This document shows, piece after piece, positions 6,791-52,239 of a stretch of 64,000 nucleotides of DNA. Origin of the DNA: Apostichopus japonicus (Eukaryota; Echinodermata; Holothuroidea; Aspidochirotida; Stichopodidae); the NCBI RefSeq assembly GCF_037975245.1, contig NC_092576.1:9813501-9877500 (forward strand), given 5' to 3'. Under the pieces are notes generated by a model that did not search any database, was not told the origin of the DNA, and saw only the letters and a list, made by a program, of their open reading frames with translations. The translations under genes were made by a program, and so were the position numbers. Each line of letters starts with the position of its first letter. Position 1 is the stretch's first letter.

Positions 6791-7655
6791 TATATTGGAA
6801 TATTTAACAGATTCTGACATTATTTAAATATTTAATTTCTTATTTATTATGTCTAATAAGAAAACGTTCATTGAATTAACTAACTTCGATAAAGCATTTT
6901 AATAACTTCCAAAACATTCCATTATCAGTACATGATACCAGACGGAATACTTTAATCCAAAATCAATTTCATTATGCTACACCCTGAATCAGGAACATTT
7001 GAACATTTTCAAAATTCTTCCGAAATGGAAGAATTGCTGAATGTCACTTCATAGCCTTCATTGTCTACATTACAACAATCCTCTGTCTCTAATTATGATT
7101 CGAAATAATTGTCAGGTTTTACAAATAATGATGGAGTAATAACCATGTTCATAACATACCATCGTTGATCATATCTGTTTGATCATATATAGGCGGGAGC
7201 TCTCTTGAGATCAATGCTAATGGCAGAGGACGTATGTTTCCTTGTGCCCTTTGATCCCTATTTAAAAAGAATATTAAATTACTTTTATATGTAATAAATA
7301 ATAAGATATATATATGTAATAAATAACTAATCGCAAAACTTGAAGAAAAAAAAACGCAGTATAGTTTAGGATTAGAAACTTCCGTCGGAATTTCTATGAT
7401 AATACCGTTTAGAGGTTTTACATATGTTCATTAAAATATTAAATTGTAGGTAAAAAAATAACAACCTGAAACATTCACAAGCAATTTGAATAAAGACATT
7501 GAAACCTAAGCAAAAACAATTGTTATCGTTGTAAATTATCAGTACTGTCTTTGTATGTAAGTTGTTAATTACCTGAGAGTCATTAGCCAAATGAAAGAAA
7601 AGAAAGTACTACTTTTTGTTCTAGTATGATTCGTACGTCTCTCCCATTGAATTAG

Positions 7656-8032
7656 TTTTAAAGGGAGTGAAGACTCGCGCACAAAAACAAACGTCTGATG
7701 CCGGTAAACTGACGTATTTTCGAATGAGGTGTAACGGAGGTATTAGACACCATCATCGATCCCAGAAAATACACACACAGCTTGCTACCGTCGGTAATTA
7801 GGCACTAGTGTACAGTCAATACATGAAGCTACGGTCAATACCCACAACACAGTGTACAAAGCAGCGACGGACATCTCGGGTTCAGATAAATGATAGCAAG
7901 GTATCAAGTTTCATTAGTTTCTGCATTTTGTAGCGACAAGGGGGGAAAAAACTTCACTTGCAAGCAACGGAGGGTTAATTTCTTTTCACAGGGCGGCACG
8001 CGGTTTTTGGGCGAGTCTCCAATGCCTTTAAG
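7656..8032. mobile_element. MITE family B within the left arm
   Basis: Inverted ends TTAAAGGGAGTGAAGACTCG (about 7658) and, reverse-complemented from about 8030, TTAAAGGCATTGGAGACTCG enclose about 370 bp without coding capacity. The right arm keeps only one end (about 17341-17375) and lacks the other, so the element was there before the duplication and was later truncated on the right. Confidence 0.65.
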
Positions 8033-8884
8033 TATATGTAATGAATGATATCTACGTCAGTGGGTTCTAGATTGGAGTTCATGTCCTATAAGCAATAGAT
8101 CTGTTCAGAATTAATGAAGATATATAAACTTCGAAAAGAAACTTACGTCGGTGAGGTCATTGTCCTGTGTCCTGTTTTGAAAGAAATTTAATTGACATGT
8201 TTTTGCTATTTCTGGCATTATTTCAAAAATTCATACAGTTTAAAATCAATACGGTTATTGCTTCAATTATGATGTCATAATAACTTATTTTAAGATCATA
8301 ACACTTAACAGAACCCTTTCATTGAACGCCTTACGAGTACCCGATGAAATCGTCTTCCGATAGATAACTGTATATTATTAAGTAATAATAATAATAATAT
8401 ATAAGTAATTATTACGCGAAGATGGGCTAAGCGTCCTATCAATATTATTCGAATTCTTGCTTTGTGTAGAATTGAACTGTATTTTATAACATTATCAAAT
8501 GACGTCAATTTAAGTGCCCGACCGGATACTTACATACAAGTATTATATGAATCGTACATAACATTCTGTATATTTTTTCTTTAAATTCAGAAAGTTTTAA
8601 ATAGACAACATTTCCATTTCAAAAAGTAAAAGGTATTCTTTTATATAACTCACCACGTAACTCATTCCACAAAATGGCAAATGTTATCGGACTGAAAATC
8701 AGTAAGATTGCTATGACTAATGAAACTCCAATTATCATTTGAAGTGAGTTGTCATCGGGGCGTGTTGTTTTTGTAGCTATAGGCAGAGGAAAGAAAATTC
8801 TTTGTGTAATTTAAATATCTAAATCTATGATTCTTCGTTTTGTTTGGTTACGTTAAAGTGAATATGTGTATTTTAACTCAACGA

Positions 8885-9124
8885 ATTATAACTTATCCCC
8901 AATATATATACTTATATAAATTCTGTATACTATTCTGTATATATATATATATATATATATAGTAATATCAATATATATATATATATAGTAATATCAATAT
9001 ATATATATATACATACATATATATAGCCTATATATATATATATACAGCCTATATACATATATATAGGCTATATATTTATATGTATATATATATCAATATA
9101 TATTTATATATATATATATATCGT

Positions 9125-9160
<36 letters not shown>
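8885..9160. repeat. AT microsatellite in the left-arm intron
   Basis: Long TATATA tracts lie between the stalk and membrane exons. The right arm has an AT tract at the same intron position (16255-16430), again showing the arms are copies. Confidence 0.9.
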
Positions 9161-10289
9161 ATACGGTAGGTACTTTACTCCATCAGCTATTCGATGACAC
9201 ATAATTATCTGTTTGTCTAAGTTATAATAACATTATGAATTCAAATAACAACGTTTCTCTTATCTTTCCTTTTCTATATAAGTCGACATTTCATTATGTT
9301 CCCTTGACTTTAAATTGTTGATTAAATATTCCCCATCAGAACATAAAAATATGTAAACAAACTTCCTAGTGAGGAAGTCATAGCTACTGTTTCACTTTCA
9401 CAATAACCAAAAAAAATGTCAAACCTGTTCTTCTGCTAACAAACACATATTTTACCGACATCTTAACTAAGGAAGCACACATAAAAAAAACTTCAGATTT
9501 TAACAACAGTTTTGTTTTTTAATAATGTATCCCGACCAGTCAATTTAATTTTTTTTAAACTTATTGAATATTTTTTACAATATTGATTATTTCTTACCAG
9601 AGGTAAAATTCTTGACACTAGATGGGGTTGTTGTTGTTGGTGGTGGTGCTGATTCTCAAAATAAAATAAGAGATTTATTTATGTGAAAACAATCATGTCA
9701 TAGAGAGTTTTATATAGGTAATTACCTCCAACAGTAAAGCTTTAAAAGACAATTGTGATGTTCAGACAGGATACCTACAAATATGTCATTAATATAAATT
9801 CTTAATTTTATACCGGTTGTTAAAATCATCCTTATCTGGGATTCTTCAATGGCTGAATAGTGATGTTCCAAATTATTAGATACAATGAAAATCACATTCT
9901 TGTAACATACATCATCAGCATCATCTGGATATATCTAACGTTTTGTAATAGTTTATCATTTCTGAAAAGCAGAATGATTGGCATTATAATGGCAATCTAG
10001 AGTAAACTAAGGGGGTTTTTCTTTCACTATAATACGCTCACCTATCCTTACAACACATTACGCATTAGCCAGGAAGCGTTAATTCATGGTACATTAAATA
10101 CTTAAGCGAATACATGTTTCGTGCAATATAATTTCATTTCCTGGTCAGTTTTATATTAACTTTTCATGTTTATCAAACCAACCTTTGATTTCCAAAGTTT
10201 TGTTGGCCCAAGTCTTTATATTTGGACCCTCCTGCCAGGCTGAACAGCTAGCATTATATCTGCCAATATACAGCTTGAGTATACTAAAG

Positions 10290-12610
10290 CATCTTAACTT
10301 AGCTCTGCGTATATAGTATACAATGTAGAGCCAATATTTGATCAATAAAAATAAATAACTTATATTTCTTACCATGACGTTCATGGAAAATGAATATTTG
10401 ATTTGGTTAATCGTTGGTATCAGGCAGACTGCGGGCATGCTTTTGACCAGTATTAATGTAATTATGATTGCATTTTTTTTGTTATCATTATTGTCAATGT
10501 AATGATAATATTACAATAATTTGTATTTCTATTTGTATTGAGGAGTACATAAAATAGTACCTACCACCCTAATTCTTACTCTAGTGATATGCTACAAGTA
10601 GGTTGAAGTAACTATAATACAAGAAATGTAGAAATATTCAAAACACACCGATCTATACACAAACATATAGGGGAATAGTTCTGAGGATACTGCTTCAGTG
10701 ATGGTGTATCTAGGAAATATTCTTACCATACGACATGATGAAAATTGATGTATTCCATTGTATTTGTCCGTCTTCAAACCCGGCAGAGCAGGTTAAAGTA
10801 TCACTGCTTTTTCCTACTCTATACTCGATAACTGATGTAGAATTAAACAGCTGACTTCCAGTGGTAAATGAATTCCAAGTTGTAATATTCCTGTCCTCAA
10901 TTATGGATGAATCCCACGTCAGATTTACCCTGGGTTTCGAATTCAATGCATGGCAAGTAATACTAAAAAATTTGTTTTCTTCCAGCCAAATTGCATCGCT
11001 AATGTAATTTCCATCTTTTGATAACGACATCACTGGAGGCACTGAATGGATAAAAAAAAATTATCAGAGATGCAGAATAGTTTAAAATGTATTGATTACA
11101 TGCGCCAAACATTTCATCAAATATTTTAAGTAAAAAACGAATACTTTTGAATTTCACTGTCATTAAATACCAAATATGACGTTGTTATGACCTTTTTTTT
11201 GGGGGGGGGGGAGTTGGAAAGTGATACTCATTTACTGCTCTGCCCTTGATCTTTCTTTTTTATATGTATTGCAAAGTTATCATTATTTCTTTGTCACGTG
11301 CCTCACGGAAAACGTGATATGTTAAATTCAAATGAAAGCAAATATATGTTTTCTCAAACACTTAAGTCACACTTCTTGAACAGTTCGCGTTAAACATATT
11401 CTTATTTTATAATCGAAATGGTAACACTTGACGGTTTCAGTGACCACCAAAAAAGGCTAACAATTCCTGAAAGGTCCCTTATCTTAGCTCTGCGTATATA
11501 GTATACAATGTAGAGCTAATATTTGATCTATAAAATAAATAACTTATAATTCTAAGCATGACATTCCTTGACTATGAATATTTGATTTGGTTAATCGTTG
11601 GTATCAGGCAGACTGCGGGCATGCTTTTGACCAGTATCACTGTAACTATGATTGCATATTATTGTCATCAGTATTATTAATGTAATGATAATATTACAAT
11701 AATTTGTATTTCTATTTGTATTTGTGGAGTACATACAATAGTACCTACAACCCAAATTCTTACTCTAGTGATATGCTACACGTAGGTTGAAGTAACTATA
11801 ATACAAGAAGTGTAGAAATATTCAAAAACACACCGATCTATCACACAAACATATAGGGGAATAGTTCTGAGGATACTGCTTCAGTGATGATGTATCTAGG
11901 AAATATTCTTACCATACGACATGATGAAAATTGATGTATTCCATTGAGGGTGTTCGTCTTCAAACCTAGCAGAGCAGGTTAAAGTATCATTGCTGTTTCC
12001 TACTCTATACTCGATAACTGATGTAGAATTAAACAGCTGACTTTCATTGGTAGATTTATTCCAAGTTGTCGTATTCATTTCCTCAATTATGGATGAAATC
12101 CACGTCAGGTGTACTTTGGGTTTCGAATTCAATGCATTGCAAGTAATATTAAATTTTTCGTTTTCTTCCAGCCAAATTTCATCGCTAATGTCATTTCCAT
12201 CTTTTGATAACGACATCACTGGAGACACTGAAGGATAAAATATTTATCAAAGATGCAGAATGGTTTAAAATGTTTTAACTACATGCGCCAAACATTTCAT
12301 CAAATATTTTAAGTAAAAATCGAATACTTTTGTTTTTCACTGTCATTGAATACCAAATATGACGTTGTTATGACCTGTTTTTTTTTGGGGAGGGGGGGGG
12401 AGGTTGGGAAGTTATACTCATTTACGGCTCTGACCTTGATATTTCTTTTTTTATATATGTTTTGGAAAGTTAACATTATTTCTTTGTCACGTGCCTCACG
12501 GAAAACGTGACAAAATGTTAAATTCAAATGAAAGCAAATATATATTTTTTTCTCCAACACCTAAGATACACTTTTTGAACAGTTTGCATCAATCATACTG
12601 TTATTTTGTA
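10290..12610. repeat. 1.19-kb tandem duplication carrying an Ig exon
   Basis: Two head-to-tail copies (about 10290-11470 and 11475-12610) are offset by 1185-1186 bp: the Ig exon ends at 10727 and 11913, and AGCTCTGCGT is at 10301 and 11486. The introns differ by a few percent, the Ig exons by clearly more. Confidence 0.88.
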
Positions 12611-13736
12611 ATTACCTTCGTTTAATTTTACAAATTGAAAACGTTTTAGATCTATAAAACATAATTCGGCGCCAAGTACGATATCCTCATTATAATAATA
12701 CACTATATTCAATTCTGTTTGTTATTCAGGTCTGTTAATTGTAATATGCAAGCATGGGAACTTGTATGGTCCGATAAACTACAAAATACATATTTCAAAA
12801 ATCAATATACAATTTATATCGGCAGGGTATGTTCAGGAGTTTCCGAACATTTACGTTATTCTGTTGTCCCAACGATAATTGCGTTAACGAAATGCCAAAG
12901 AAAGACGCCGATAGCCGAAACGTGGTTTATCCACAATGCTTAAGAAGGGTTTTATAGGTCACTCGGGTCCAAGGGTAACGGGAAACGCCCCTAATGTTTC
13001 GTTTTTTGTATTGCGGTTTACGACATGACTCGGTATGTTTCGACATCTTAAAATATACATTTTTCGACATATTTTGTGTGTTATTCGACATAGTCAATAC
13101 GTCAAAATTCGACCACCCGGAAGCTACCATCATAAATGATAGATTCTAGGTTAAAGGTGATATTAGTATTTTATTAGAAGTAATTTAGCCAGTTGTTAAT
13201 CATATTTAAATCTTGAATGTACATTCAATTCACATTCAATTTAGTTTGTCGTTTAATTTTGACAGAAAACTAAACCAATGAAACCAATATGTTATATACA
13301 GTTTGAGAGTAGCATCACTTGAATGATCAAATGGAAGAATTCAAAATGAAATGATCAGCTTAATGTTATTGCATTTATTTTAATTATTAAGTTGATTTTG
13401 TCAATAAGATGAGCAGGTTTTTTTTTTTTAAGAGAATCTATATATTGTGTTCATTTGTATTTAGCAGGAAGCATAACACAAATAGTATCATGTTCTGAAT
13501 TTAAGATACATTAACTATTTTTGCTAACGTTTTAAATATTTCAATTAAATTTTCATGAAAAGGACACCAATATGAAATGTTGATCCTGAATAAAACATAT
13601 ATAATAAACGTGATTTTCATATTTGACCTTCAGCAATGTCAAGTTTAGTTTCCTTTTAATAACTATCAGTATCATATTTATCATTTTAAGTTTCAAAAAC
13701 ATAACAAACATCATACAATTTATAATTCAAATTCCA
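12611..13736. other. Spacer between the inverted arms
   Basis: About 1.1 kb of AT-rich sequence separates the two divergent receptor copies. Both ectodomains would need first exons and a promoter here or inside the arm ends, but I see no convincing signal-peptide exon on either strand. It holds a cluster of phased CGACAT motifs (13021-13115). Confidence 0.5.
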
Positions 13737-14142
13737 TGGTGCTCACAGAAACCGTCAAGTGTTACCATTTCGATTTACAAAATAACAACATGTTTAACGC
13801 GAACTGTTCAAGAAGTGTGACTTAGGTGTTTGAGAAAAAATATATTTGCTTTCATTTGAATTTAACATATCACGTTTTCCGTGAGGCACGTGACAAAGAA
13901 ATAATGATAACTTTGCAATACATATAAAAAAAAAAAATATCAAGGGCAGAGCCGTAAATGAGTATCACTTTCCAACCCCCCCCCCCAAAAAAAAGGTCAT
14001 AACAACGTCATATTTGGTATTTAATGACAGTGAAATTTAAAAGTATTCGTTTTACTTAAAATATTTGATGAAATGTTTGGCGCATGTTATTAATACATTT
14101 TAAACTATTCTGCATCTCTGATAATTATTTTTATCCATTCAG

Positions 14143-14457
14143 TGTCTCCAGAGATGTCGTTATCAAAAGATGGAAATGAAATTAGCGATGAAATTTGGCT
14201 GGAAGAAAACGAAATTTTTAATATTACTTGCCATGCATTGAAATCGAAACCCGAAGTACACCTGACGTGGAATTCATCCTCAATTGGGGAAAGGATTACA
14301 ACAACTTGGAATTCATCTACCACTGAAAGTCAGCTGTTTAATTCGACATCAACTATAGAGTATATAGTAGGAAACAGCAATGATACTTTAATATGCTCTG
14401 CCGGGTTTGAAGACGCAGAATTACAATGGAATACATCAGTTTTCATCAGGTCGTATG
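14143..14457 (+). other. Gene 1 first Ig (C2-type) exon, hypervariable
   Basis: A phase 1-1 exon with the Ig pattern NITC...LTW...DTLICSA, giving Cys-Trp-Cys. It carries six N-glycosylation sequons in about 105 residues. The donor is G|GTAAGG; reading through it adds three residues (DIS after K) and stops. Two copies in the inverted arm (11913-12227 and 10727-11041) keep the Ig core residues but differ from it at 22-26 amino acids. Confidence 0.9.
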
Positions 14458-16257
14458 GTAAGGATATTTCCTAGATACACCATCACTGAAGCAGTATTCT
14501 AATAACCATTCCCCTATATGTTTGTGTATAGATCGGTGTGTTTTGAATATTTCTACATTTCTTGTATTAGTTACTTCTTTCTACTTGTAGCATATCACTA
14601 GAGTAAGAATTTGGGTGGTAGGTACTATTTTATGTACTCCACAAATACAAGTACAAATTATTGTAATATTATCATTACATTAACAATAACGATAACAATA
14701 ATATGCAATCATAGTTACAGTGATACTGGTCAAAAGCATGCCCGCAGTCTGCCTGATATCAACGATTAACCAAATCAAATATTCATTGTCAATGAATGCC
14801 ATGGTTAGAATTATAAGTTATTTATTTTTTATTGATCCAGTATTGTCTCTACATTGTATACTAAATACGCAGAGCTAAGATTAGATGCCTTAGACCTTTC
14901 ATGAATTGTTAGGGCCTTTTTTGTGGGGGGGGGGGGGAGCAGTTATAGTGCTGTCGTAGAACCCTTTAATTTATTCATTTCTTTCGTCTTTCACTTCAGT
15001 AAACGCGACAATTAGTCTGAATATTCCGAGAGAAGAAGAAGGTGAAAGAAATGAATACACTGAAGGGGAGGCTTTAATTTTTACATGTCAAGCTTTGTCA
15101 GCACGACCAGCTGTTAAACTGAACTTAACCATTTCGAGAATATATCCAGAAGGGACACACAAGCCGAATTGCACATACGAAAATAATTCTACATATGCTA
15201 ATTGTACACTGTCTATTGGCAGTTATAATGCTAGCTGTTCAGCCCGGCAGGAAGGTCCAAATATAACAACTTGGGACAACAAAACTTTTGAAATCAAAGG
15301 TTGGTTTGATAGACATGAAAAGTAAATATAAAACTGACCAGGTAATGAAATTATATTGCACGAAACATGTATTCGCTTAAGTATTTAATGTACCATGAAT
15401 TAACGCTTCCCTGCTAATGCATAATGTGTTGTAAGGATAGGGGGAGAGTATTATAGTGAAAGAAAAACCCCCTTAGTTTACTCTAGTTTGCCATTATAAT
15501 GTCAACCATTCTGCTTTGCAGAAATGATAAACTATATCAAAAACGTTAGATATTTCCTGTGATGCTAATGATGTATGTTACAAGAATGTGATTTTCATTG
15601 TACTTAATAATTTTGAACATCACTATTCAGCCATTGAAGAATCCCAGAAAAGGATGATTTTAACAACCGGTATAAAATTAAGAATTTATACTAATGACAT
15701 ATTTGTAGGTATCCTATTCTTCACATCACAATTGTCTTTTAAAGCTTTACTGTTGGAGGTAGTTACCTTTATAAAACTCTCTATGACATGATTTTTTTCA
15801 CATAAATAAATCTCTTATTTTATTTTGAGGATCAACAAAAACTCAAACTAATGACACGACTTCAGAATCTGATGCTCCTGGTAAGAAATAATCAATATTG
15901 TTTAATTTAATCAATAAATTAAAAAAAATTAAATTGACAGGTCGGGATACATTATTTAAAAACAAAACTGCTGTTAAAATCTGAAGTTTTTTGTGTGTGT
16001 TTCCTTAGTTAAGATGTCGGTATACTATGTGTTTGTTAGCAGAAAAACAGGTTTGATTTTTTGGGTTACTGTGAAAGTGAAATAGTAGCTATGACTTCCT
16101 CACTAGGAAGTTTGTTTACATATTTTTATGTTCTTATGGAAAATATTTGTTTAACAATGTCGACTTATATATTAAAAGGAAAGATAAGAGAAACTTTGTA
16201 ATTGAATTCATCATGTTAACATTTAATATAACTTAGACAAACAGAGAATTCTGTGTA

Positions 16258-16294
<37 letters not shown>

Positions 16295-19200
16295 AATGTA
16301 TATATATATATATATATTTATATACATATATATGTATATATATGTAAATATATATATTTATTTATAATATATATATATATAAATATATATATTATATTTT
16401 ATATTATATATATATTACTATATATATTCGGGATAAGTTATAATTCCTTGAGATAAAATTCACATATTCACTTTAACGTAACCAAACAAAAAGACGAATC
16501 ATAGATTTAGATAATTAAATTACACATTGAAAGAATTTTCTTTCCTCTGTCTATAGCTGAAACAACCACAGAACCCGATGACAACTCACCTCAAATGATA
16601 ATTGGACTTTCATTAGTCATAGCAATCTTACTGATTTTCAGTACAATAACATTTGCCATTTTGTGGAAGAAGTTATTTGGTGAGTTATATTAAGAATACC
16701 TTTTACTTTTTGAAATGGAAATGTTGTCTATATAAAGTTTTCTTAATTTAAAGAGAAATTATACATAAATGTTATGTACGATTCGTACTGTACATCGTAA
16801 TACAACTAGTATAATCAGATGTTTTTCATATATTACTCGTATGTAAGTATCCGGTCTGGCTCTTAAATTGACGTCATTTGATAATGATATAAAATACAGT
16901 TCAATTCTACACAAAGCAAGAATTCGATTAATATTGATAAGACGCTTAGCCCATGTTCGCGTAATAATTACTTATATATTATTATTATTACTTAATAATA
17001 TACAGTTAGCTATCGGAAGACGATTTAATCGGGTACTCGTAAGGCGTTCAATAAAAGGGTCCTGTTAGGTGTTATGATCTTAAAATAAGTTATTATGACA
17101 TCATAATTGAGGTAATAACCGTATTGATTTTAAACTGTATGATTTTTTAAAATAATGCCAGAAATAGGAAAAACTTGTGACTTAAATTTCTTTCAAAACA
17201 GGACACAGGACAATGACATTACCGACGTAAGTTCTTTTTCGAAGTTTATATATCTTCATTAATTCTGAACAGATCTCTTACTTATAGGACATGAACTCCA
17301 ATCTAGAACCCACTGACGTAGATATCATTTATTACATACTTAAAGGCATTGAAGACTCGCCCAAAACCGCGTGCGGCCATATGAAAAAGTTAACTTTCTG
17401 TTTGCTTGCAAGTGAAGTTTTTTTCTTGTCGCTACAACATGCAGGCAGTTATGAAACTTGAGACTTGATAAAGTAGCACTTCCTTTTGGCTAATGACTCT
17501 CAGGTAATTAGCAACTTACATACAAAGACAGAACTGATAATTTCCAATGATAACAATTGTTTTCGCTTAGGTTTCAATGTCTTTATTCAAATTGCTTGTG
17601 AATGTTTCAGGTTTTTCAGGTTGTTCATTTTTTTGAACCTAAATTTAATATTTTTATAAACATATGTAAAACTTGTATGTAGAACATTCATCCTCTAAAC
17701 GGTATTGACATAGAAATTCCGACGGAAGTTTCTAATCCTAAAATATACTCCTTTTTTTCCCTTCAGTTTTGCGATTTGTTATTTATTACATATATATATA
17801 TCTTATTATTTATTACATATAAAAGTAATTCAATATTCTTTTTAAATAGGGATCAAAGGGCACAAGGAAACATACGTCCTCTGCCATTAGCATTGATCTC
17901 AAGAGAGCTCCCGCCTATATATGATCAAACAGATATGATCAACGATGGTATGTTATGAACATGGGTTATTACTCCATCATTATTTGTCAAACCTGACAAT
18001 TATTTCGAATCATAATTACAGACAGAGGAATGATGTAATGTAGACAATGAAGGCTATGAAGTGACATTCAGCAATTCTTCCATTTCGAAAGAATTTTGAA
18101 AATGTTCAAATGTTCCTGATTCAGGATGTAGCACAATGGAATTGATTTTGGATTAAAAGTATTCCATCTGGTATCATGTACTAATAATGGAACGTTATGG
18201 AACTTATTAAATGATTTATCAAAGTTAGTTAATTCAATGAACGTTTTCTTATTAGACATTATAAATAAGAAATTAAATATTTGAATAATGTCAGAATCTG
18301 GTAAATATTCCATTTAATGCTTACAACTATGTTACAAATGTTTACAACGACTTAATCAAAGTCCATTCACTCTGGCTTTTTCCAATAAAAATTGTAGACG
18401 TAGCGGAACAAAGCATAGATGATACCGTCATCGGCTTGAATTCTGAAGATGTCCAACTAAACTTCCAGCTTCCAGGGGCAGGTACCATGAAGTACTGGGT
18501 AGCAACCTACTCGTCTGAAGGGGATAAAGTTACGAAAATTATTGCAAAGTCTGTCTCTGGTGTGTATATTTAATCGACTTTGATTGATTTATTAATTTCT
18601 CATGTGTTTCAGTAGCAGAAAATTGATATTTTTATAATAAGTTTTACAAATGTTATAAGTATACCGAGTGCTATGTTATTACTTCATCGACAAAACCACA
18701 GGAGTAAATATATATATTATGTCAATGAAACGCAAGTTATCACAGCCAGTTTTGATCAAACACAGAGTGACAAAGATATCCAAGAAACATTGATGCATTT
18801 AACTGTCTGTATACGGGATGTCATATAAACGGTTTCTTGTTATAGTTATGTTTTAGTAGCAGTGCCACTTTCTATAGATGTAAAGAAGAAATGTCTTTAG
18901 ATTTTCATTCTCAATTTTCTCTTACTTTGATAACATCTAATCAGGTGTGTCTTCAATTTGTTTATGTTTTTTCCCCGATGTAGAGAATGCCCGGATGAAG
19001 GAGATCCTTAATTTCCGTGCATTAGCAAAGAATGCGACAATTATGCCCAGACATCAAAACATTGTGGATGTATTAGGAGTGTCACTTGAAGATGGTGAGT
19101 GGCATACTATCGGCTATTAGTTGATATTTTAACTCGTACCACGTGTAAAGCCTGCTTTTATACCACAAATACATGCAGTTTTGTGTGAGCATTTAGGCCT

Positions 19201-22200
19201 CTCATTCTTCAAGTGCTTTTATTAACTAATAATATTTTAATAAGTTTAATAACAAACAAGTATTAGACACTAGTTTTAATAAGACACAAGTATTAGAAAC
19301 TAGTTTTAATAAGACACAAATATTAGAAACTAGTTTTGATAAGATAAAAATATGAGAAACTAGTTTTAATAAGACATATATATTGAAAACTAGTTTTAAT
19401 AAGACACAAATATTAGAAACTAGTTTTGATAAGATAAAAATATGAGAAACTAGTTTTAATAAGACATATATATTTAAAACTAGTTTTAATAACACACAAA
19501 TATTAGAAACTAGTTTGATAAGATAAAACTATTAGAAACTAGTTTTGATAAGATAAACATATTAGAAACTAGTTTAAATCAGACCTTTCTGTTTATGGGT
19601 GATTGATATATGTTTTTAGTGTTAACTTTTATTATTCAATCATTGATATTCTTTTTTATATTCAGTGCCGTACTTTATCTATCAAGAATATATTGAATAT
19701 GGAACCCTGAAAGATTTTTTAATGAGAAATTACCAGGAATCGTCTGGTGGTTCGAGCAAACAGGACACCCCAGACCAAGAGAAAACATTACATTTGACAA
19801 TGTTTGCAGCTGATATTTGTGAAGGAATGTTGTTTCTGAAAAAGCAAAATGTAAGTTCTCTCTTTCACGTTAATACTTAATATAGTTATTGTTAAGTGAT
19901 GGTCACAACAAGGCGTATGTTTAGATCCGTACGACAGACAGGATCCCTAGAACGCCGACCGTTATTGGTGGCATAGTTAGTACGGCACATTTATTCATTC
20001 CTTCAAAACGTTCAAATGCAAAAAAATGGCTTTGTCCTTTTGAAATTAATATTATTAGCATTATTACGGATATCATATGCTGAGTAACTAAGACTTGAAT
20101 CAATGTATTTGTTTTATTGTGTGGTGAAACATCTTATGTTACCGGTTATCAAGTGCTTTGTTATAGAAGTTGTTAACTTTTAGTACTAATATGGTCACTG
20201 ATTGTAAATAATTCGTATCTCTTGTTTGGATGCATTTTCTTCCAAACACAATTCAGTGTCACCACCCAGGACTAGCTGCGAGAAAGGTATTACTTAGTCC
20301 CAGTGGGAGATGTAAGTTGTACGACTTCTGGCCAGTTGATATAGCCCAAGATAGAGTGAAACAGATTTTAGATAAGGTTAGTAACTTCTTGCCTTCGCTA
20401 TTTGGCTACCAAGATAAAAAAAAGAGGAGAGGAAATGCTAAATAGTAATATATGAAAGTCTTACTTTAACTTTGGTTTTTGTGCTGTTTATGAAAGGTTT
20501 GCACCTTTCTTCATTATGCAGTTTAGGTAACATGTTTGTGACATTACATTGTCTGTTACATAAAAGTGTAAATTAATATAACTTTGTCAGGTGACCTATC
20601 ATGTTTATAAAAACAGATAATTTCCCAATATGTAGAAACAAAGTCACATAGTAAGGATATTCAATAACTTTTGTAAAATATGAACCATCATTTGCCTTTC
20701 TTATACTAATTTCGGTCGGTCTACAAAATAGAGACGTCAAAATGGACCAAAAATGTAGTCGCCTCTGTATATAATATGCGATATTTGATGGAAAAGTTAT
20801 CTCACAACTTTACTTATTATATTTCATAATGATTCCTCTCATTAATAATGTTTACAGAAAGTACCACCCCTAGCGTGGCTAGCTCCAGAAACCGTCTTCC
20901 TCGGACACTTTATGGAAAAATCAGACATCTGGAATTTCGGTGTTGTTCTATGGGAAATTTACTCCCTTGGTATGGCTCATAATAACCATTTTGGATCGAT
21001 ACTTTGCAAAGTTCGATAATGTATATATAAATTGTTGTAACGTTTCTACAATTACTATAGAAGCAAATGTTCATCAAGGGCATTCGTAAAGTTTGTATTT
21101 TTGATTTCTTTGAAACTAAAAGCAGTAGTAGTTGTTAACAGATATAGTTTATACCAAATACAGGCTCAAATGGTGTAAATACCACTAATTATAGTGTTAT
21201 CAGTCTTTTAGCATAAGCAGTAGCTGTATGAAGTTATGTATCAGTCAATGATCCCCTATTGGATTCTTATAAATAATGTTATTATTTGGAGCTCCGTTTA
21301 GTCTCGTTCAAATTCATATCACTTTATCGTTTGCATAAAAGGGTTACATGAAACTCATTTGTGATTATTAGACACTTCCTTTTAAGCATGATTACGTTGT
21401 GTTACTCCCCTTCCAGGAGAGATACCATTTGGTGGGCTAACCTGCGCTGAAATAGAAAGTAAATTAAGAAACAAGGAATCCTTAGATCAACCACTCACCT
21501 GTCCAGGAGGAATGTAAGTTTAAAACTTGTTAATTAGAGCACAATTTGTTGCTTCTCATACCGACATGAAAAATACCACATATACATTCATTCAGCATCG
21601 AGATATAAGAACTGTTATACTGTCTGACCTTTAAATCAATTATAAATGTTCAAATGAAAAGTCTTGAATATTTCTTTCATCTTGGTTTTTTTCGCAGTTT
21701 AGTTTTGTTTAATCATTGTCTCTAGAGACTAGCTGATCATATAAGTAAAACAAAGTACTCTTTTTTAACAGATCTAGATCTGATTACGGCATTTAAAAGA
21801 AACTTTGTCATCCATTTATTTTGTCTGGCAAGTTTAAACAGACGTGTTGTTTATTTGTAAAGCATATTTGCCCATTTTCTTTCCATTTGTAGTTTTGGTC
21901 ATATGCTAGCTACCTGGAACTCTGCCATAGACGAGAGGCCGACTTTTGAACACCTTAACGTAACATTAAGCTCGTTTCTATATGATATGAGAGAGGTATG
22001 TTTTTGAATTTCAATAAATATTTGAAATTAAATATGAAAACCGATTAGTTTACATGAATGACCTTATTCAATATATAACATTATTAAATCATTTGTATAC
22101 AAATACTAACTCAAGGAATTCATTTATTTTATAAATTTTAAACATTGTTTGATGAATATATCTCTTGTTTCCTTCTGTTTACAAGTGTGAAAACTTCACA

Positions 22201-22347
22201 AGAGGAATTTTGTTTCTTACAAAACCTTTTATCTCTTTTAACATATAGTCATTGAATAACGAAAATGATAATTCCGAAGAACCAAATTATTTCAGGCTGG
22301 ATAAAGACTCTTCTTCATCGGATGATTATATTGAACACATTATTTGA
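14143..22347 (+). CDS. Receptor gene 1: Ig-domain receptor tyrosine pseudokinase (5' exon not found)
   Basis: Fourteen exons join in frame with GT-AG introns: 14143-14457, 15000-15299 (Ig domains), 15830-15880 (stalk), 16557-16679 (membrane), 17202-17226 (micro-exon), 17850-17947 (juxtamembrane), 18398-18559, 18984-19094, 19666-19850, 20257-20376, 20858-20969, 21417-21513, 21893-21995 (kinase-like) and 22249-22347 (tail, TGA). They encode about 633 residues after a missing signal-peptide exon. The kinase-like part has a GAGTM glycine loop, IIAK (beta-3 Lys), [31 protein letters not shown] and DERPTF, all hallmarks of the receptor tyrosine kinase fold. The catalytic loop reads HPGLAARK instead of HRDLAARN, and DFG is DFW. 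The activation segment between DFW and APE has no Tyr, so catalysis is unlikely. A type I membrane receptor that signals through partners is the best reading. Ligand unknown. PTK7-like pseudokinases are analogous in layout, not clearly orthologous. Confidence 0.87.
15000..15299 (+). other. Gene 1 second Ig exon, glycan-rich
   Basis: A phase 1-1 exon with Ig cysteines in [10 protein letters not shown] and NASCSARQ and eight N-X-S/T sequons in 100 residues. The donor G|GTTGGT is weak, but the only stronger nearby site (GTAAAT at 15323) would break the downstream frame. Reading through the donor gives GWFDRHEK then TAA at 15324-15326, so a soluble form is possible. Confidence 0.8.
16557..16679 (+). 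other. Gene 1 membrane-span exon
   Basis: Encodes a polar Thr-rich start, a helix [20 protein letters not shown] and a basic stop-transfer WKK. Same length (123 nt) and phase as the left-arm exon 8654-8776; the helix is nearly unchanged while the flanks vary. Confidence 0.92.
17850..17947 (+). other. Gene 1 juxtamembrane exon, identical in both arms
   Basis: A 98-nt exon with the motif SRELPPIYD. The left-arm copy (7160-7257) is the same at every base by eye. Gene 2 keeps SRELPPI in its matching exon 47671-47771, so the motif is a conserved intracellular element, perhaps a proline-containing docking site. Confidence 0.88.
19235..19578. repeat. 30-bp minisatellite in a gene 1 intron, 11 copies
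   Basis: TAGTTTT-like unit starts recur every 30 bp from 19271 to 19570 (two steps of 29-30). Variants with AAGACACAA, AAGATAAAA and AAGACATAT alternate, giving a higher-order pattern. The reverse-strand open frame through it exists because 30 is a multiple of 3. Confidence 0.93.
20257..20376 (+). other. Gene 1 degenerate catalytic-loop exon (HPG, AARK, DFW)
   Basis: A 120-nt phase 0 exon holding HHPGLAARK and KLYDFWPVD. The HRD Asp and Arg, the loop Asn and the DFG Gly are replaced; the DFG Asp remains. Gene 2 exon 49728-49847 has the same replacements with the same length. Confidence 0.9.
22249..22347 (+). other. Gene 1 C-terminal tyrosine tail
   Basis: The last exon encodes an acidic tail with [10 protein letters not shown] and DDYIEHII, then TGA. 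Gene 2 ends with SYFSLDKDSS and DDYIEHIL. Both Tyr contexts (YFxL and YIEH) are conserved although the kinase domains have diverged, which suggests SH2 or adaptor docking after phosphorylation by another kinase. Confidence 0.85.
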
Positions 22348-22689
22348 GGCTTTTCTTGATTCTCTGGACGTTTTTTCTTGGACCTGACGAAGAGTGTTTC
22401 TTCTTGTTGGATGTTAAGATGTGAATATAACTGTGATATTTTGACCGTTTCGCTTTGGTTGGGGAACGACGAACATACATCTTACTTTTGTGGACAACAC
22501 TTTGAAATGAAATCTACTGGATTAACTTAACATGTAAAGGAAATATGATGAGGATGTCCATCTTCCGAGCTACAGATACGAAGTTTCTTTGTTCCTGGAT
22601 TATATACACAACTCTTGGAGCAGCGTCTACACTACAAAGATTAGATGCAAATATATAAGTAGTAATTTAATTAAAAAATAATCAACAAA

Positions 22690-22695
22690 AATAAA
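22690..22695 (+). promoter_or_regulatory. Candidate polyadenylation signal of receptor gene 1
   Basis: AATAAA about 340 bp after the stop codon; the intervening 22348-22689 is likely 3' UTR. Confidence 0.5.
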
Positions 22696-23261
22696 GTGAA
22701 ATTAAATGAAATATTGAGAAAGAATGTGAATGGACATTGACATCGTTTGTAAAGCTTGGTTATCGTTTAGTGTTTGATCAGCCTATAAAATGATCCTAAT
22801 ATTGTGTATTATGGTATAATTTGAAGGAAAAACAAATAGTGAAAAAAAAAGAATTATTTGTAATAATGATCTCAAACGCTATCACAAGAGTGAATTTAAG
22901 GTTTGAAATCGATTTTTCGTTGATAACAGGGTTATAGTATGTTTAAGTATATCTTTAGTACATTAATTCCTACAAGGAAACATACTTTGCAGATATAACA
23001 TTTTTTTACGTTATGGGAAAATGATGGCTTAAACAATCGTCAGAGGCTAATATGGACTTAATTTCAGTTTCGCTAATTCCATAGTTTCAAGAGGGTATTA
23101 ATGCATTAATAAAAATCATTTGTACAGCGCATTAATTAATAGGTCTTAGACTTGCATAATGTTTGCTTTAAAAAGAAAAGAAAACTATTGATTTGACAAA
23201 GAAGTAGAATATTGAATACATATAGTTATCATTTAAGTTTCTTTAATAAGTTTTATTCGGT

Positions 23262-23374
23262 TTAGTTCTTTGTGGTATGACATCTGTTAAACTGAGTAGG
23301 CAGAATTCTGTCTTGATCTGCAATATTCTTTTGTGCGCCATTTTCTACACTAGCTTCATCTACTTTGCTAACAG
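23262..23374 (+). repeat. 113-bp duplicated segment with hydrophobic small ORF, copy 1
   Basis: Encodes MTSVKLSRQNS followed by a long hydrophobic run ending FANS, which looks like a signal peptide or membrane anchor. Copy 2 at 24829-24941 matches it except for three bases, all three changing an amino acid. The two copies diverge exactly after GCTAACAG. No downstream exon was recognised, so I call it a repeat and not a gene. Confidence 0.6.
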
Positions 23375-23790
23375 CTTGTACAAAAAAGTTTCACTTTTAC
23401 ATCATTCAGGAAGATCACGTAGTTATCACATGAAATCTATTTCCTCTTCGGATAGCTTCATTTAACTGCAAAAGAATAAAAATGCAGGAAAAAAATATTC
23501 AAAAAAAAAAAAGAAATTAAGAAGGCATGCAGCCATCGTTTATTCTTAGTTAAAACAGCACATTGTGATCGAAAATTGATTCGCACATTTTTTTTGTATG
23601 ATACATTAGTGAATAAAATAAATCATCCTACTAATTATCCACAAAATAACTGAACGTGTAGTAATAATTGTCAATACAAAGCTAATTAATTATCAGAAAA
23701 AAATAATAAGACATTTTTGAGTGTATAATTTGAAAAGTTGAGTACAAGTTCGTGGTCAAGTATTTTATCAAGTGTATGTACTATATTGTA

Positions 23791-24400
23791 GAATTGTTTA
23801 GCTTGACGCCTTTGTAAAACCTGTTATATCCATATGTGACCAAGTCAGGCACAGGATTTGCCATCAGGCTAAACCTATCCCTTACTTTAATTACATTTGA
23901 CCATGTAAGATGCTCTGCGCATGAGTTGTTGATGATGATTATAGAATTGTTTAGATTGGCACCTTTTGTAAAACCTTTTATATCCATATGTGACCAAGTC
24001 AGGCATAGGGTTTGACATCAGGCTAAACCTATCCCTTACTTTACTTACATTTGACCATGTAAGATGCTCTGCGCATGAGTTGTTGATGATGATTATAGAA
24101 TTGTTTAGATTGGCACCTTTTGTAAAACCTTTTATATCCATATGTGACCAAGTCAGGCACAGGGTTTGACATCAGGCTAAACCTATCCCTTACTTTAATG
24201 ATATTTTACCATGTAAGATGCTCTGCGCATGAGTTGTTTATGATGATTCTGGAATTGTTTAGATTGACGCCTTTGTTAAACCATTTATATGCATATGTGA
24301 TCAAGTCAGACACAGGGTCTGCCATCAGGCTAAAGCTATCCTTTACTTTAATTATATTTTAACATGTAAGATGCTCTGCGCATGAGTTTTTGATATTTTA
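23791..24400. repeat. 153-154-bp tandem repeat, 4 copies
   Basis: GAATTGTTTAG recurs at 23791, 23944, 24098 and 24252, each followed by ATCAGGCTAAA and GATGCTCTGCGCATGAGTT blocks. The open frames on both strands are repeat by-products. Confidence 0.93.
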
Positions 24401-24828
24401 AGCGATATGTAATAAACAAAGTTTCATTTTTCAGATGTTTTGAATTATGTTCTTTTGCCGAAACGAATGTGGAGAACAGAGTCATAGAATGCTATAATTG
24501 AGGAATATTTTTCTTACAGAAACCTTACAGTTTTATGTGGTATAATGTGCAAGAATGTTTAGAAATATCCTTTTTAGTGGCTTGCCCTATACGAAAATCA
24601 TATTTTTTTCGGGATGTTTCAATAAAAGTTACTTTGCAGTATTCTTTTCAGGAACTGAAAACCTACATTTTAGAGGCATGCAATTAATTTTAACCATAGC
24701 AATGTACCATCGGTAGGTATATAACTGAAGTATTGAGTTCCGTATAAATAATGGAATTCGATTATTTTTCATATAAGTTCTTCATTGCAGATGAGTTTTC
24801 TCTCTTAAATGAGAAAAGTTTTCTTCTA

Positions 24829-24941
24829 TTAGTTCTTTGTGGTATGACATCTGTTAAAATGAGTAGGCAGAATTCTTTCTTGATCTGCAATATTCTTTTG
24901 TGCGACATTTTCTACACTAGCTTCATCTACTTTGCTAACAG
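24829..24941 (+). repeat. 113-bp duplicated segment, copy 2
   Basis: Matches 23262-23374 at all but three positions; ends at GCTAACAG and then goes into unrelated sequence with an early stop. Confidence 0.6.
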
Positions 24942-25404
24942 TGCAGAGTCAACTAGCTCTAGGTAGGGAGTCAACTAGAGAAGGACAAAGACAGAAAAGT
25001 GTGGAGAACAGAGGTGGAAAATAGCTACGTTAAGAGGGGTGACAGAGGAGGAACAAGGGGAGATGTTGTTTTTATTGTACCGTAATCATTAAGAGGAGTA
25101 AATAATTGTAACAATCACTTGGTTACCAACTTGTGTATTGTGGTTTTTATTTTTATAATTTTGCATTTGGTTATCTAACGTGATAACCTTGTATGCTACA
25201 TGTGATCAAATCACATGCAATAAAAAATCTCTTCCAAAAATGTATTACTCATATTTCTGGGGACTTAATAACACACTTAACTTGTATTGCAACCACGTAA
25301 CCATTATCTTATGATTTGTAGTATGAAATCAAGTGAAAAGCGATAAAATAATGACACTAAGATTTATTAACACTTCGGTCGAATCATTATTGAGAAAGGT
25401 AGCT

Positions 25405-26040
25405 TCAAACTGGTAGTGTCAGTATGAGCAGTATGAATATTATGTTTCTATCAGATATAAAGGTTTGGAACTGTTTGTACTCTCAGTATGATTGCTTTAA
25501 ATGATGATATATCCAAGTCTGGTAGTGTCAGTATGAGCAGTATGAATATCATGTTTCTATCAGATATAAAGGTTGGGAACTGTTTGTACTCTTAGTATGA
25601 GTGCTTTGAAGGATGATATATCCAATACTGGTAGTGTCAGTACCAGCAGTATGAATATCATGTTTCTATCAGATATAAAGGTTAGGAACTGTTTGTAATC
25701 TCAGTATGAGTGCTTTGAAGGATGATTTGAGAGGACAGTATAGAATGGTATATAGATTTAGAATCAGATAGAGGTTTGGAAATGTTTGTACTGTCAGTAT
25801 AAGTGCTTTGAATCATGGTATGAGAGGACGGTATTGTGTAATATTAACATGAGAATCAGAGAAAGGTTAGGAACTGTTTTCACTGTCAATATGAGTGCTT
25901 TGAAGCATTATATCAGAGGACAGTATAGAGTGGTATTACCATTAGATTCAGATAAAGGTTAGGAACAGTTTGTACTGTCAATACGAGTGCTTTGAAGCAC
26001 GATATGGGAGGACGGTTTAGAGAGGTAACTGTCTGGCAAA
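25405..26040. repeat. 109-bp tandem repeat grading into a degenerate array (family C)
   Basis: TGGTAGTGTCAGTA recurs at 25411, 25520 and 25629, a 109-bp period. It is followed by degenerate units with AAGGTTAGGAACTG, GAGTGCTTTGAAGCA and GGGAGGACAGT blocks. Related units lie at 55725-55860 and 58838-59000. Confidence 0.88.
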
Positions 26041-26099
26041 GTAGACTGTTCTTTGAATTTTGCAATGTACTACGTCAATGAGGAAGGGTGGATTCATAT

Positions 26100-29000
26100 T
26101 AACAGCAACTTTCGTTTCATCTTGTCATAGCGACGATACAAAATATTAGGTGTTTCTGTATATAATGTCTAATAATCAAGATCCAAAGTGCTTCATATAT
26201 CATATTTTCAGATTTTGAATATGATAGTATCAAGTATTCCTGTTTCACCTTTTTTTCAAAGATATTGAAAGACTGGGAATCAACAAACATATTAATTTTC
26301 AAAATGTATTACAGATGCTTCAGAAAGAATACAAAGTTAACAAAACATGTAAATGTAGTTAAATTCTCATTGTCATGATCTTTCGTGAAAATTCTGCAAA
26401 TATATATCTTTGTTCATCTTGCGTCAGTAAATTCTTTATTGGAATTGTACCTTCAGTTAAGCTTCTTCAAACTTTATATTGATACTTGATACGACAAACC
26501 ACCCCACCTACTATAACTGTTAACCTAGTCACAACCTGCATCACTATGTGCTTACTACTGAAACTGTCGTTGGACAACTCCATGGTGGCGTCTGGTCTTC
26601 TCAAGTGTTCCGACGACGAAACTTCATCTCAATAACTGCATTTTACATTTGCTTGGTACATCGTTTCACAACCAATTTCCGCCGCATATTTCCTCAAGTT
26701 CAAGCTGATGGCTTACAAACACTCATATGCGTTCTTAACTGACTGCTCATCGCCAGAATAGACAATTATTGTGTCACATAAATGAAATCTTCTTGCTTCT
26801 TTCACATTTGTAATTTTATTTAATTGTAATTGAATTTAAGTTTATTAAATGTATTCTTGGTCATATTTGCAGGTAACATCTCGGCTGATTAGAGTTGCAG
26901 CTGATCTGTTCAGTTACCTAATCTGTCATGGTGAATTATGATACTGTCAGATTACATGGTAATCTATCCACCTCGAGTCGATGTGTGAAATGCTGAACGG
27001 CCATCTTGTTTAAGAGCTTCATGGAGACAGAAAATCTCATTCTATGATTTCCATGCATTTACAGACCTTTTGGATACCTCGAAAGGTGTAAACATAAGAG
27101 CGCTGGATTCTTACAGTGAACATTTTCGTTATTCAGGCTGTCCAATTATCATGTTCAAGTCTAATTTTGTGGAATCCATGCATTATATCATTTAGTTTTC
27201 TGTAAATGTCTGTAAGAACGAGGAAAGGGTGTTTATTTCCATCTACCAGTTTCGAACATTCTTCTCAATAAAGCCATTAATATCATCTGAAAGAACAAAC
27301 AATTACAATTTTAAGTCAGTTGCTATAACTGCAGATTATAAATAGTTAGTCACTAATCAGGTGTTAATAACCGATGTTAATCAGGTGCTGGATATGACAA
27401 CTGCTAGTTATCTGGTCAGCCATCTTTGGTAAATGAACAAAAACTTAGTAAACACCTTTCCTTCTGTGCATTCGATATACTTTCTAGGTGTTCCTAGAAT
27501 ACTGATTCAAGAATAGTTTGAAGCCCTTGGCTGTACATTTAAGATTCTCTTTGTAACTTACCAAGATTAACTTTGGTCAACTTTGCACTCGGAAGTTTTA
27601 GATGTCAGATGAAGTTATGGAGTCATCATTTTTGCCTCCATTAAAAAGACATATCTGTGATGAATATGAATAAATAAAATAACAATGTTACTATGACAAT
27701 GTATAGTAGACATATAAATCTTCGTGAAACCTTCAATGAACTATTCAGGGCATACATATAACTTCAATTCCTGTAAAGAGAAACAGATAGAGAGAGAGAG
27801 CGCGCGAAAGTCTCTAAGATGCTTAATTCAATAAAAGTGAGCCTGTGACGCCACACAGTACATGTTGGTTACTGATACATATTCATTTCGCTGTGATGTA
27901 TCATCACCCAATTTGACACACTTTTCTAATGCTATTACCACTCTTTGCTGTTCTCATATATGATGCTGCGATGCATTCGTACTTACAGTGTTAACAGTTC
28001 CTAAACCTTCACATGATAAAAACAGGATATTCATGCTGTTCAGATTGACATTAAAATTGCTTTGAAGTATGATATGAAAGTAGAGTTTTATAAAGCCCCA
28101 CAAGGGTGACGTCATCGTGTAATAAGTCTACAGTCTGCTTCACGATTTCTCCTGTTCCGTGTTCTTTTACTGTTATAAACTTGCAACATGACAGAAGTAA
28201 GCCATTGCGCAATCTCAATGTGAGAATAAGGTTAATACTTCAGACAATCACTGACTTCTTTCACAAATGTAAACTGGGTCATCAATCTTCTGTCTGTTGA
28301 GAAGGACGTTAGGAAACTAGAACTAGTGTTATAATCGAAGTTTAATTATTCCTATGTTAGCTTTGTGTTAGCTATTTCATCGACACTGAGCGGCGATGAC
28401 AAGTTTAACATTTGATAGTAAGCCACGGCTGTACTTTGCCACCTCCCTAGCTCATTTTGTCTAAATTGTAAGGACGAGAGCAAGCGATCATTAAAACTAG
28501 GAAATGAAACATGATTCCCTGTTAACATTATTGAAGAGGTTTCACCAGCTGGAGCTATAAATGATTCTTGTCATGGACAAAGGTCATGGACAGGTCAATT
28601 ACGTATCGTTCGTTGTGTGTGCCAGTGAACCGAAAGGACAACAGGAAACGGTGTGTTATACAATATAGATCAGATTGTTTGTGAATTTGCCAATATGTTT
28701 CGTAGATTGTCATTTAATAAGGGCAGATAACTGACAGATAACATAGCAATTGTCTAGGAGAGAAATATACTCCACACTGCTTAGTGTACAACTTGATAAT
28801 GTATGTCTCAAACACGAGATGGATGTTTGATTATATGTCCTTTAGTTCTCTAGTGGCTGAACCATTCCTTACTCCAGGATGTTGATCACATGGGGCGGTT
28901 TGTTGCTGGCTCGTAGCCAGACCGGGCACTGTCCCACCCCATCCCACCCCACCCCACATCCCACCTTCATGCCCCTTCATACCCCCAACCGCCTTCAACG

Positions 29001-30890
29001 AGTGCAAAAGTCTTCGATCATCATGTGTACGAAAGCTATACAAGTTAACACTAAATGAGTATTGTGCCTCACTTTATATAGTTAGTGGGCGTCCAAAACA
29101 GGATACATAGCTACGAGCCTTGTCACATACATTAAATGGATACAATATATTGCACAAGAATACCAATCGGCATTTTAAATACATGGGAAACATATACAAA
29201 TGGTGGCAACGAGAGGTTTTAAGCAACACAAATTCATGATAACATAGGAATTGTATCAATGATCATACAAGAATCTTTCGTGAACGTAAAGTCTACTTCA
29301 TACAAAACTTCAACGTTGCTAAAAATCCCCCAACGGTTCGAAAATGGACGTAATTTTCGGCACCTATATAAATGCAGGTGTGACGTCATCGGGAATGATA
29401 AAATAGATGGAACTTTACTAAGATAAATGTTTATGATTGCAGGTAAAAGTCACTGGCTCTAAAGTTAACTTACAAAGTACAGATAAAAATGCAGCGAAAA
29501 AAATCTAATAAGCATGAAAAATATGAATTAGCATGGGTAATAGATTGTAAGAAAAATGTTAATATCGAAATTAAATTAAGATTACCTTTTAATATTTAAA
29601 AGATGCTAATATTTCTAGAAGAAAGTCGAATTCGGATGAAGGGTCGAATTATCCCAACATTACCCTGGTCTGTTCAATGTTTGATTATGCGATGGATTTT
29701 GCTTTAACTCTGGTTATTATCATACTTCATTTGTTTTAATAGGAAAGAAACAGGGTTCCTGTCAACAAAGTTAGTTACCTATACGCAATACTCGAAATCA
29801 CTCTAGGGGTGATGAACTAGGCAAGAGCTTTGTACACATCATAGATCAAATTATTGACAAGAGATGACTGATTCGGAGCATCGCAATAATACTGATAGGT
29901 TACACTAACACGTGAATCTCTTGACAGTTGGAAACAGCTAAATAAAGATAAAATAAAATAAAATAAATATTATAAAATACAACAGAAGATAAGTCCTGTG
30001 CTCTAACATAATAATCTTAGTTCTTGGCTACCTGAATATCCCTTCCCACGCTGGGGGTAGAATTTAGAAGCGAAAGCATCTTGTTTAATGTTTTATCCGG
30101 TTGTACTAAAAACTTTCACATTTGTTAATAACATTTTCCGATTTCCCGATTTTCAGTTTCTTTTTATATTCTAGATCTCTTCGTTAGATTGAGAAATATT
30201 GAAGTATAGTAAAAATTTAACATCCGTTTCAAACTAATTGAAAGTTATATACAAAACTAACTTGGTTTTGTTACTGCGTTTCCGCTATCTTCGTTTCAAA
30301 AACGAAAACGATATTTTTAGTTTCATTTTACTTTCAACGACTGCAGCTCCCTGCGATATATAACGCAAGTAAAGAAATGAATACATTCAGCATAAGAACT
30401 ACTTATTATCTTGTTAATTTTTTGAGCTAATTTTCTTCAATTTTAATTCTTACGTTTGGGAAGAAACTAGGGAGAGACATGCAGATGATTATATAAGGTA
30501 CGTCTTATCGAATGCCATTTGCGACAGCTGTTATCAATTTAAAATAAAGAACGATTTACATTCGACATCATAAACTACTTTTGTAGCCTACTCAAATAAT
30601 TTTAGCCACGTTACACAGAAACCAAATTAAGTATGTCCTTGTCACTTATCGTGTTTTATGATCAAGTTAAGCACAACGATTTCGTAACATTCCACACATA
30701 TGATATGTGGTTGAAAACATTTTAAGTTGCCTAGCTTATGACCCATGAAACATCCCCTTCCCAACTTTTCTAAGGAATAAGAAAATTAATATCAGAATGA
30801 TTTTGTCTGAAGTATTTACACAAAAGGAAGAACGGCTGAATATTTCACCAGAACAAGGAACGCATTTTACAGAACGAAATACAACTATAA
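26100..30890. other. Non-coding interval
   Basis: About 4.8 kb with no gene signature. It contains scattered remnants of family C (for example near 28050), a C-rich tract at 28920-28980 and an (AAAAT)n run at 29943-29968. Confidence 0.5.

Positions 30891-42579: not shown

Positions 42580-52239
<9,660 letters not shown>

Follow-up and report, generated by a model that had tools for sequence, protein, structure and literature searches.

A stretch of 64,000 nucleotides from the holothurian Apostichopus japonicus (NC_092576.1, positions 9,813,501 to 9,877,500; C16:9813501-9877500, here called the window) contains three copies of an exon encoding an immunoglobulin (Ig) domain, and raises the question of whether these have been driven apart by selection or have drifted apart under neutrality. 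The initial annotation favoured diversifying selection from a comparison of the three copies. Following searches of the whole genome (671.6 Mb, 35 contigs) we consider the best explanation, and a probable one, to be recent duplication followed by faster-than-neutral change in the ectodomains of Ig receptor pseudokinases, under constraint in the cytoplasm. Diversifying selection is still the best reading for the Ig ectodomain; the counts from the three copies are insufficient to establish it, and it is carried instead by a further copy on another contig, by a second Ig exon and by constrained kinase-like exons.

All three exons lie where they had been placed. The copy in the forward gene (F, 14143..14457, + strand) encodes a C2-set Ig domain, and the other two (R1, 10727..11041, and R2, 11913..12227, both - strand) stand in tandem within a left arm (6796..12612, -) that is an inverted duplication of 13737-18312. 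Each is an open exon of 315 nt with phase-1 borders at both ends and usable splice signals, matching Pfam PF08205 (C2-set Ig) with E values of 6e-7, 4e-6 and 3e-9 for F, R1 and R2 respectively. A DNA search of the genome revealed two near copies of this exon (Ig1) outside the window, on contig C21 at 91% and on C10 at 89%. The C21 copy is carried by a segmental duplication that is common to the window (12824..29666, +) and to C21 (~15.054-15.072 Mb). The C10 copy is older, with a silent divergence (dS) of 0.39-0.47 to each of the recent copies, and beyond ~80 bases of exon-adjacent intron little of the gene's DNA aligns.

The codon counts had been read as almost exclusively replacement changes, at ~29:2, 23:4 and 23:1 amino-acid-changing to silent for F-R1, F-R2 and R1-R2, and our recount of 28:2, 22:4 and 23:1 is nearly the same. 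Counted per nucleotide these become 32:6, 27.5:6.5 and 28.2:4.8. Because neutral change offers ~3.6 replacement sites for each silent site (244-246 and 66-68 sites in these comparisons), the counts are no proof of selection, and we have rejected that use of them. The expectation of dN/dS above 1, where dN is replacement divergence, is borne out only nominally on a codon alignment, with values of 1.52, 1.14 and 1.64 that are not significant (Fisher p = 0.41, 0.82 and 0.50). When the C21 copy is added the six pairs of recent copies give dN/dS of 1.02-2.55, again none significant. Taking silent sites as the yardstick, the three-copy counts are compatible with neutrality.

The neighboring introns provide another yardstick. 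They had been described as differing by a few percent, and we find a divergence per flank of 3.2-10.1% for the copies in the window, and of 3.2-10.5% over the six pairs. Exon divergence does exceed intron divergence for F and R1 (12.1% vs 5.6%, p = 5e-4), but for F and R2 the excess is not significant (10.8% vs 8.6%, p = 0.29). Replacement differences are 2.65, 1.47 and 1.55 times the expectation from the flanking introns in the three window pairs, with Poisson P of 1e-6, 0.03 and 0.02 in a test that ignores the clustering of changes. Averaged over the four recent copies (F, R1, R2 and C21) dN is 0.125, dS 0.089 and intron divergence 0.083. The ratio of dN to intron divergence is therefore raised, at 1.52 (bootstrap confidence interval (CI) 1.02-2.17), with dN/dS of 1.41 (CI 0.80-3.02) and a ratio of dS to intron divergence of 1.07 (CI 0.48-1.91). 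The Ig signature is fixed as described, with Cys29, Trp42 and Cys84 invariant. The same had been said of most sequons, yet of the six N-x-S/T sites in F only those at 66 and 96 are present in all three window copies.

F is the first of a series of exons on the + strand. It is followed by an Ig2 exon (15000..15302) with a weak Ig_2 match below the Pfam cut-off, a Thr/Ser-rich stalk exon (15830..15880) and a transmembrane exon (16557..16679), the latter two with predicted borders. Kinase-like exons follow for the N-lobe (18398..18559, codons 18400-18558), in which the lysine of IIAK is kept, for alpha-C (18984..19094, codons 18986-19093), for the hinge and alpha-E (19666..19850, codons 19668-19850), for the catalytic loop (20257..20376) and for the APE region (20858..20969). 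A probable last kinase-like exon (W...ERPTF, 21900..21960) has putative borders and was left out of the counts. Joined together, the kinase-like exons match Pfam PF07714 with E = 6e-35, a tyrosine-kinase fold by sequence, and the nearest solved chains are those of CSF1R (E = 3e-24), FGFR1 (1e-23) and KIT (4e-23). In both F and C21 the catalytic loop reads HPGLAARK in place of HRDxxxxN, and DFW replaces DFG, so that the catalytic HRD aspartate and the DFG motif are lost. Neither gene therefore has the HRD and DFG motifs that would mark an active class III/V receptor tyrosine kinase (RTK). The order Ig1-Ig2-stalk-transmembrane-kinase is the same in F and C21, on one strand and with compatible phase-1 borders in the genomic sequence. 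We predict from this that F is spliced into a single protein comprising two Ig domains, a stalk, a transmembrane helix and a pseudokinase domain.

Since F and C21 have open Ig, stalk, transmembrane and kinase-like exons in common, the two ends of the predicted protein can be compared over the same pair. Ig1 exhibits 22.8 replacement and 5.2 silent differences and Ig2 31.0 and 6.0, giving 53.8 and 11.2 together and dN/dS of 1.45. The five kinase-like exons have 6.0 replacement and 8.0 silent differences, with dN/dS of 0.21. Replacement rates differ between the Ig and kinase parts with p = 9e-13 and silent rates with p = 0.48, and the ratio of replacement to silent differences with p = 0.0035. 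As a neutral reference we took base-change probabilities from the introns at 12.8-18.3 kb (3,864 columns of intron spanning 5.5 kb). The replacement rate over Ig1 and Ig2 is 1.81 times the local intron rate (CI 1.31-2.39 by block bootstrap, P = 0.0003), and the corresponding silent ratio is 1.28 (CI 0.56-2.22). From the introns we would expect 14.3 replacements in Ig1 and 14.1 in Ig2 (observed 22.8 and 31.0; Poisson P = 0.02 and 7e-5), and 32.4 in the kinase part, where 6.0 are observed (P = 2e-8). Ig2 has the highest divergence of any part (12.5%, dN/dS 1.67), and none of the 771 other overlapping windows of 300 columns in the alignment is as diverged. The strength of the intron excess lies in Ig2. 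We examined the possibility that all the copies are pseudogenes, and rejected it for F and C21 on the basis of the constrained kinase-like exons; the Ig excess is therefore not the decay of a dead gene. There has been a recent acceleration above the neutral intron rate that is restricted to the ectodomain, and its interpretation as positive selection is moderately supported.

The recent copies form a conversion-like mosaic. By parsimony over F, R1, R2 and C21, all 10 informative sites in the upstream intron group F with R1 and R2 with C21. In the first half of the Ig1 exon five of six group F with R2 and R1 with C21, whereas F goes with C21 and R1 with R2 in the second half (eight of nine) and in the downstream intron (8 of 11). 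The genealogy switches twice within ~1 kb, indicating that copies on two chromosomes exchange sequence or have kept ancestral variants.

Comparison with the older C10 paralogue gives a time course. Against C10, Ig1 has dN/dS of 0.19-0.31 and is conserved, and Ig2 is far more diverged (for F, dN 0.53 and dS 1.07). Separate values of omega (dN/dS) for the recent branches and the C10 branch, fitted to the five Ig1 copies on each of five trees, improve on a single omega by 30-33 in twice the log-likelihood difference (2dL), with omega of 1.6-1.9 on the recent branches and 0.07-0.08 on the C10 branch. Ig1 was thus long conserved and then changed fast after recent copying, i.e. its change is episodic. 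Among the four recent Ig1 copies the site model M2a is preferred over M1a with 2dL of 21.3 and 21.6 on two trees, placing ~10-12% of codons at omega 12-16. In 80 simulations under M1a on a mosaic genealogy a value of 21.3 was never reached (95% point 5.7, maximum 10.3). Codons 24, 37, 52, 92 and 93 have posteriors above 0.9, and 2dL is 12.6 when codons 91-93 are left out.

The status of the left arm is open to another interpretation. The kinase-like exons are missing from it, as is most of Ig2, of which a remnant encoding residues 68-100 of 100 is left (10181..10279, -), the 5' two thirds being gone. R1 and R2 might then be pseudo-exons in decay, belonging to a truncated gene and so uninformative on selection, something we regard as possible, if somewhat short of an even chance. 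However, R1, R2 and the stalk (9598..9654, -) and transmembrane (8654..8776, -) exons of the arm, the latter two with predicted borders, are all open, their splice signals are present and their phases match, so that a short Ig-Ig-transmembrane protein could be made. Such decay would be compatible with our explanation for F and C21, and the evidence from that pair is independent of R1 and R2.

Several results weigh against faster-than-neutral change of the ectodomain. In this one assembly the replacement rate is above the intron rate but not significantly above the silent rate; the pooled ratio of replacement to silent differences per site for F and C21 is 1.41 (CI 0.81-3.18), and omega on the recent branches is not significantly different from 1 (2dL 2.2-3.2). 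Ig1 alone is weakly above the introns, with P of 0.07, 0.02 or 0.003 according to whether the nearest introns, those at 12.8-18.3 kb or all are used, and its divergence is equalled or passed in 56 of the 771 other windows, the highest being at 16.0-16.9 kb around the transmembrane exon. Masking the 12 codons that carry two or three nucleotide changes each drops the 2dL of M2a to 3.3; this takes out the most variable codons by construction, yet shows the dependence of the test on them. Adjacent differences are in excess both in the Ig1 exon (41 vs 21.5 expected) and over the whole F-C21 alignment (81 vs 41.5), with a smaller excess in the introns on either side (10 vs 9.8 and 20 vs 15.1), so that multi-nucleotide mutation may inflate the site-class test. 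A scan for an ATG, hydrophobicity and a donor found no convincing signal-peptide exon for the forward gene. Finally, we compared 22 of 25 further Ig loci fetched from the genome (L011-L035), excluding L022, L025 and L027, whose exons either carry a stop or lack both an open frame and a late donor. Among 60 distinct pairs dN/dS is below 1 in 40 and above 1 in 17, three being identical; none of the 17 is significant, and seven have no silent and 3-4 replacement changes. Inspection of these other pairs indicates that intron divergence generally exceeds that of the exon. We therefore rejected the idea that Ig1 is fast throughout the family, and acceleration above the introns is a property of this cluster.

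A rival account is that constraint was relaxed after duplication, with the redundant ectodomains drifting almost neutrally and clustered mutations swelling the replacement excess. Such an account would agree with the lack of significance of the pairwise dN/dS values, with the twofold excess of adjacent differences and with the loss of the M2a signal on masking. A dN/dS of 1.2-1.7 is also seen in certain other very recent pairs of the family, compared with mostly 0.3-0.6 in older pairs. However, drift would not be expected to outpace the introns, as the Ig exons of F and C21 do, and the cytoplasmic exons of the same two genes are tightly constrained. Moreover, the recent pairs L015-L024 and L012-L016, at similar silent divergence, have dN/dS of 0.43 and 0.41. 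On balance we think relaxation unlikely, although it deserves serious weight. That gene conversion homogenised the introns while exon conversion was rarer or selected against, so that the exon only looks fast, is very improbable: it would fit the switching genealogies and the 3.2% divergence of the F-R1 upstream intron, but exon silent sites would rise too, and their ratios to the introns given above are close to 1 in the four copies and 1.28 in F-C21, albeit with wide intervals, and the F-C21 reference extends well beyond the nearest introns.

Our explanation by duplication and faster-than-neutral change would involve the following steps. A recent burst of copying would have generated both the inverted repeat and the tandem duplication of the window, as well as the segmental copy on C21. 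Faster-than-neutral amino acid change in both Ig domains would then have followed, the cytoplasmic pseudokinase being kept meanwhile under purifying selection. Under the most likely mechanism the ectodomain would bind a changing ligand, whether microbial, allogeneic or fast-evolving self, and the pseudokinase would take part in signalling with active kinases as its partners, in an allosteric or scaffold role. Duplication would combine with gene conversion and positive selection to diversify a recognition surface. A recognition role of the putative Ig ectodomain is plausible, and that role may be in immunity or allorecognition.

The gene belongs to a large family. A genome search with the catalytic-loop exon (36 residues) gave at least 150 related matches, the weakest with E = 0.022. 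This is a lower bound, as 150 of 232 candidates were scored, and the list is biased to relatives of the query. Of those listed 72 are on C12, 43 on C16 and 35 on 11 other contigs; the 115 on the first two lie at 0.6-25 Mb of C12 and 0.8-46 Mb of C16, many of them clustered. In a sample of 20 of the 150, HRD and DFG are each absent from all (18 have HP[GA], one HPE and one SPG), and the asparagine of HRDxxxxN is lysine in all 20. Among 97 Ig1-like hits, taken at E up to 10 and including five near copies, 51 are followed on their own strand by a catalytic-loop match at a distance of 0-25 kb (30 of the 41 best), compared with a mean of 1.4 and a maximum of 6 in 200 random placements. A match lies up to 25 kb upstream on the same strand for 20 of the 97, and on the opposite strand for seven. 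A second, diverged member is present in the window itself, with an Ig1 exon (42580..42933, +) that is 19% identical to F over Ig1, and catalytic-loop and APE exons (49728..50298, +), the catalytic loop being similar to that of the F gene. On C12 (6589832-6593242; L032-L034) three Ig exons ~1.5 kb apart have no coding differences, which reflects either tandem duplication in the very recent past or an artefact of assembly.

Like the class III/V Ig RTKs (CSF1R, KIT and FLT3) and FGFR, the predicted receptor has an Ig ectodomain, one transmembrane helix and a tyrosine-kinase fold. Those receptors have three or more Ig domains. Here we find two Ig exons, the HRD and DFG motifs are lost, and a single genome yields at least 150 related matches. 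Hydractinia Alr, Botryllus Fuhc, Dscam and VCBP are invertebrate allorecognition or diversified Ig loci. They resemble the present family in having Ig-type ectodomains, clustered duplicates and elevated replacement change, the latter known here from one assembly; to our knowledge a pseudokinase tail is not part of any of them. A table in the review PMC13259870 lists pseudokinases with HRG, HRS, HRN or HKD instead of the consensus HRD. The kinase fold is likewise retained here with its catalytic motifs substituted; compared with the proteins in that table, the sea cucumber family differs in its HPG (HP[GA] in most sampled relatives), its uniform lysine for asparagine and its large lineage-specific number. 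Among the titles and abstract openings of the papers listed, with few subscription papers covered, we found no echinoderm family of Ig pseudokinase receptors described on a large scale, which is only weak evidence that none has been reported.

Echinoderms, a group closely related to chordates, possess very large families of innate immune receptors. If our explanation is correct, a numerous class of Ig receptors carrying a dead tyrosine kinase would join these, and the family would offer a natural series for how a pseudokinase tail signals. We suggest tentatively, and with more doubt than conviction, that well over 100 Ig receptor pseudokinases, dead by the change of HRD to HP[GA], form a candidate germline-diversified recognition system, with duplication of subfamilies, exon conversion and bursts of selection on the Ig domains of a fixed scaffold. 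The F and C21 pair makes the idea testable, having ~54 replacement differences in two Ig exons against six in five kinase-like exons of the same scaffold.

Elsewhere in the window an open reading frame at 447-884 matches the ZIP zinc transporter family (Pfam E = 2e-14), and there are tandem repeats at 57634-58462 (period 165 bases), 44886-45501 (period 309) and 25409-26027 (period 92-109). In the same genome full-length COX1 is located on C35. The mitochondrial COX1 gives a sensible protein under genetic code 9 (AAA = Asn, ATA = Ile), which echinoderms share with flatworms. Fragmentary COX1 matches at C29:14745-31219 are either a nuclear mitochondrial insert or an assembly leftover.

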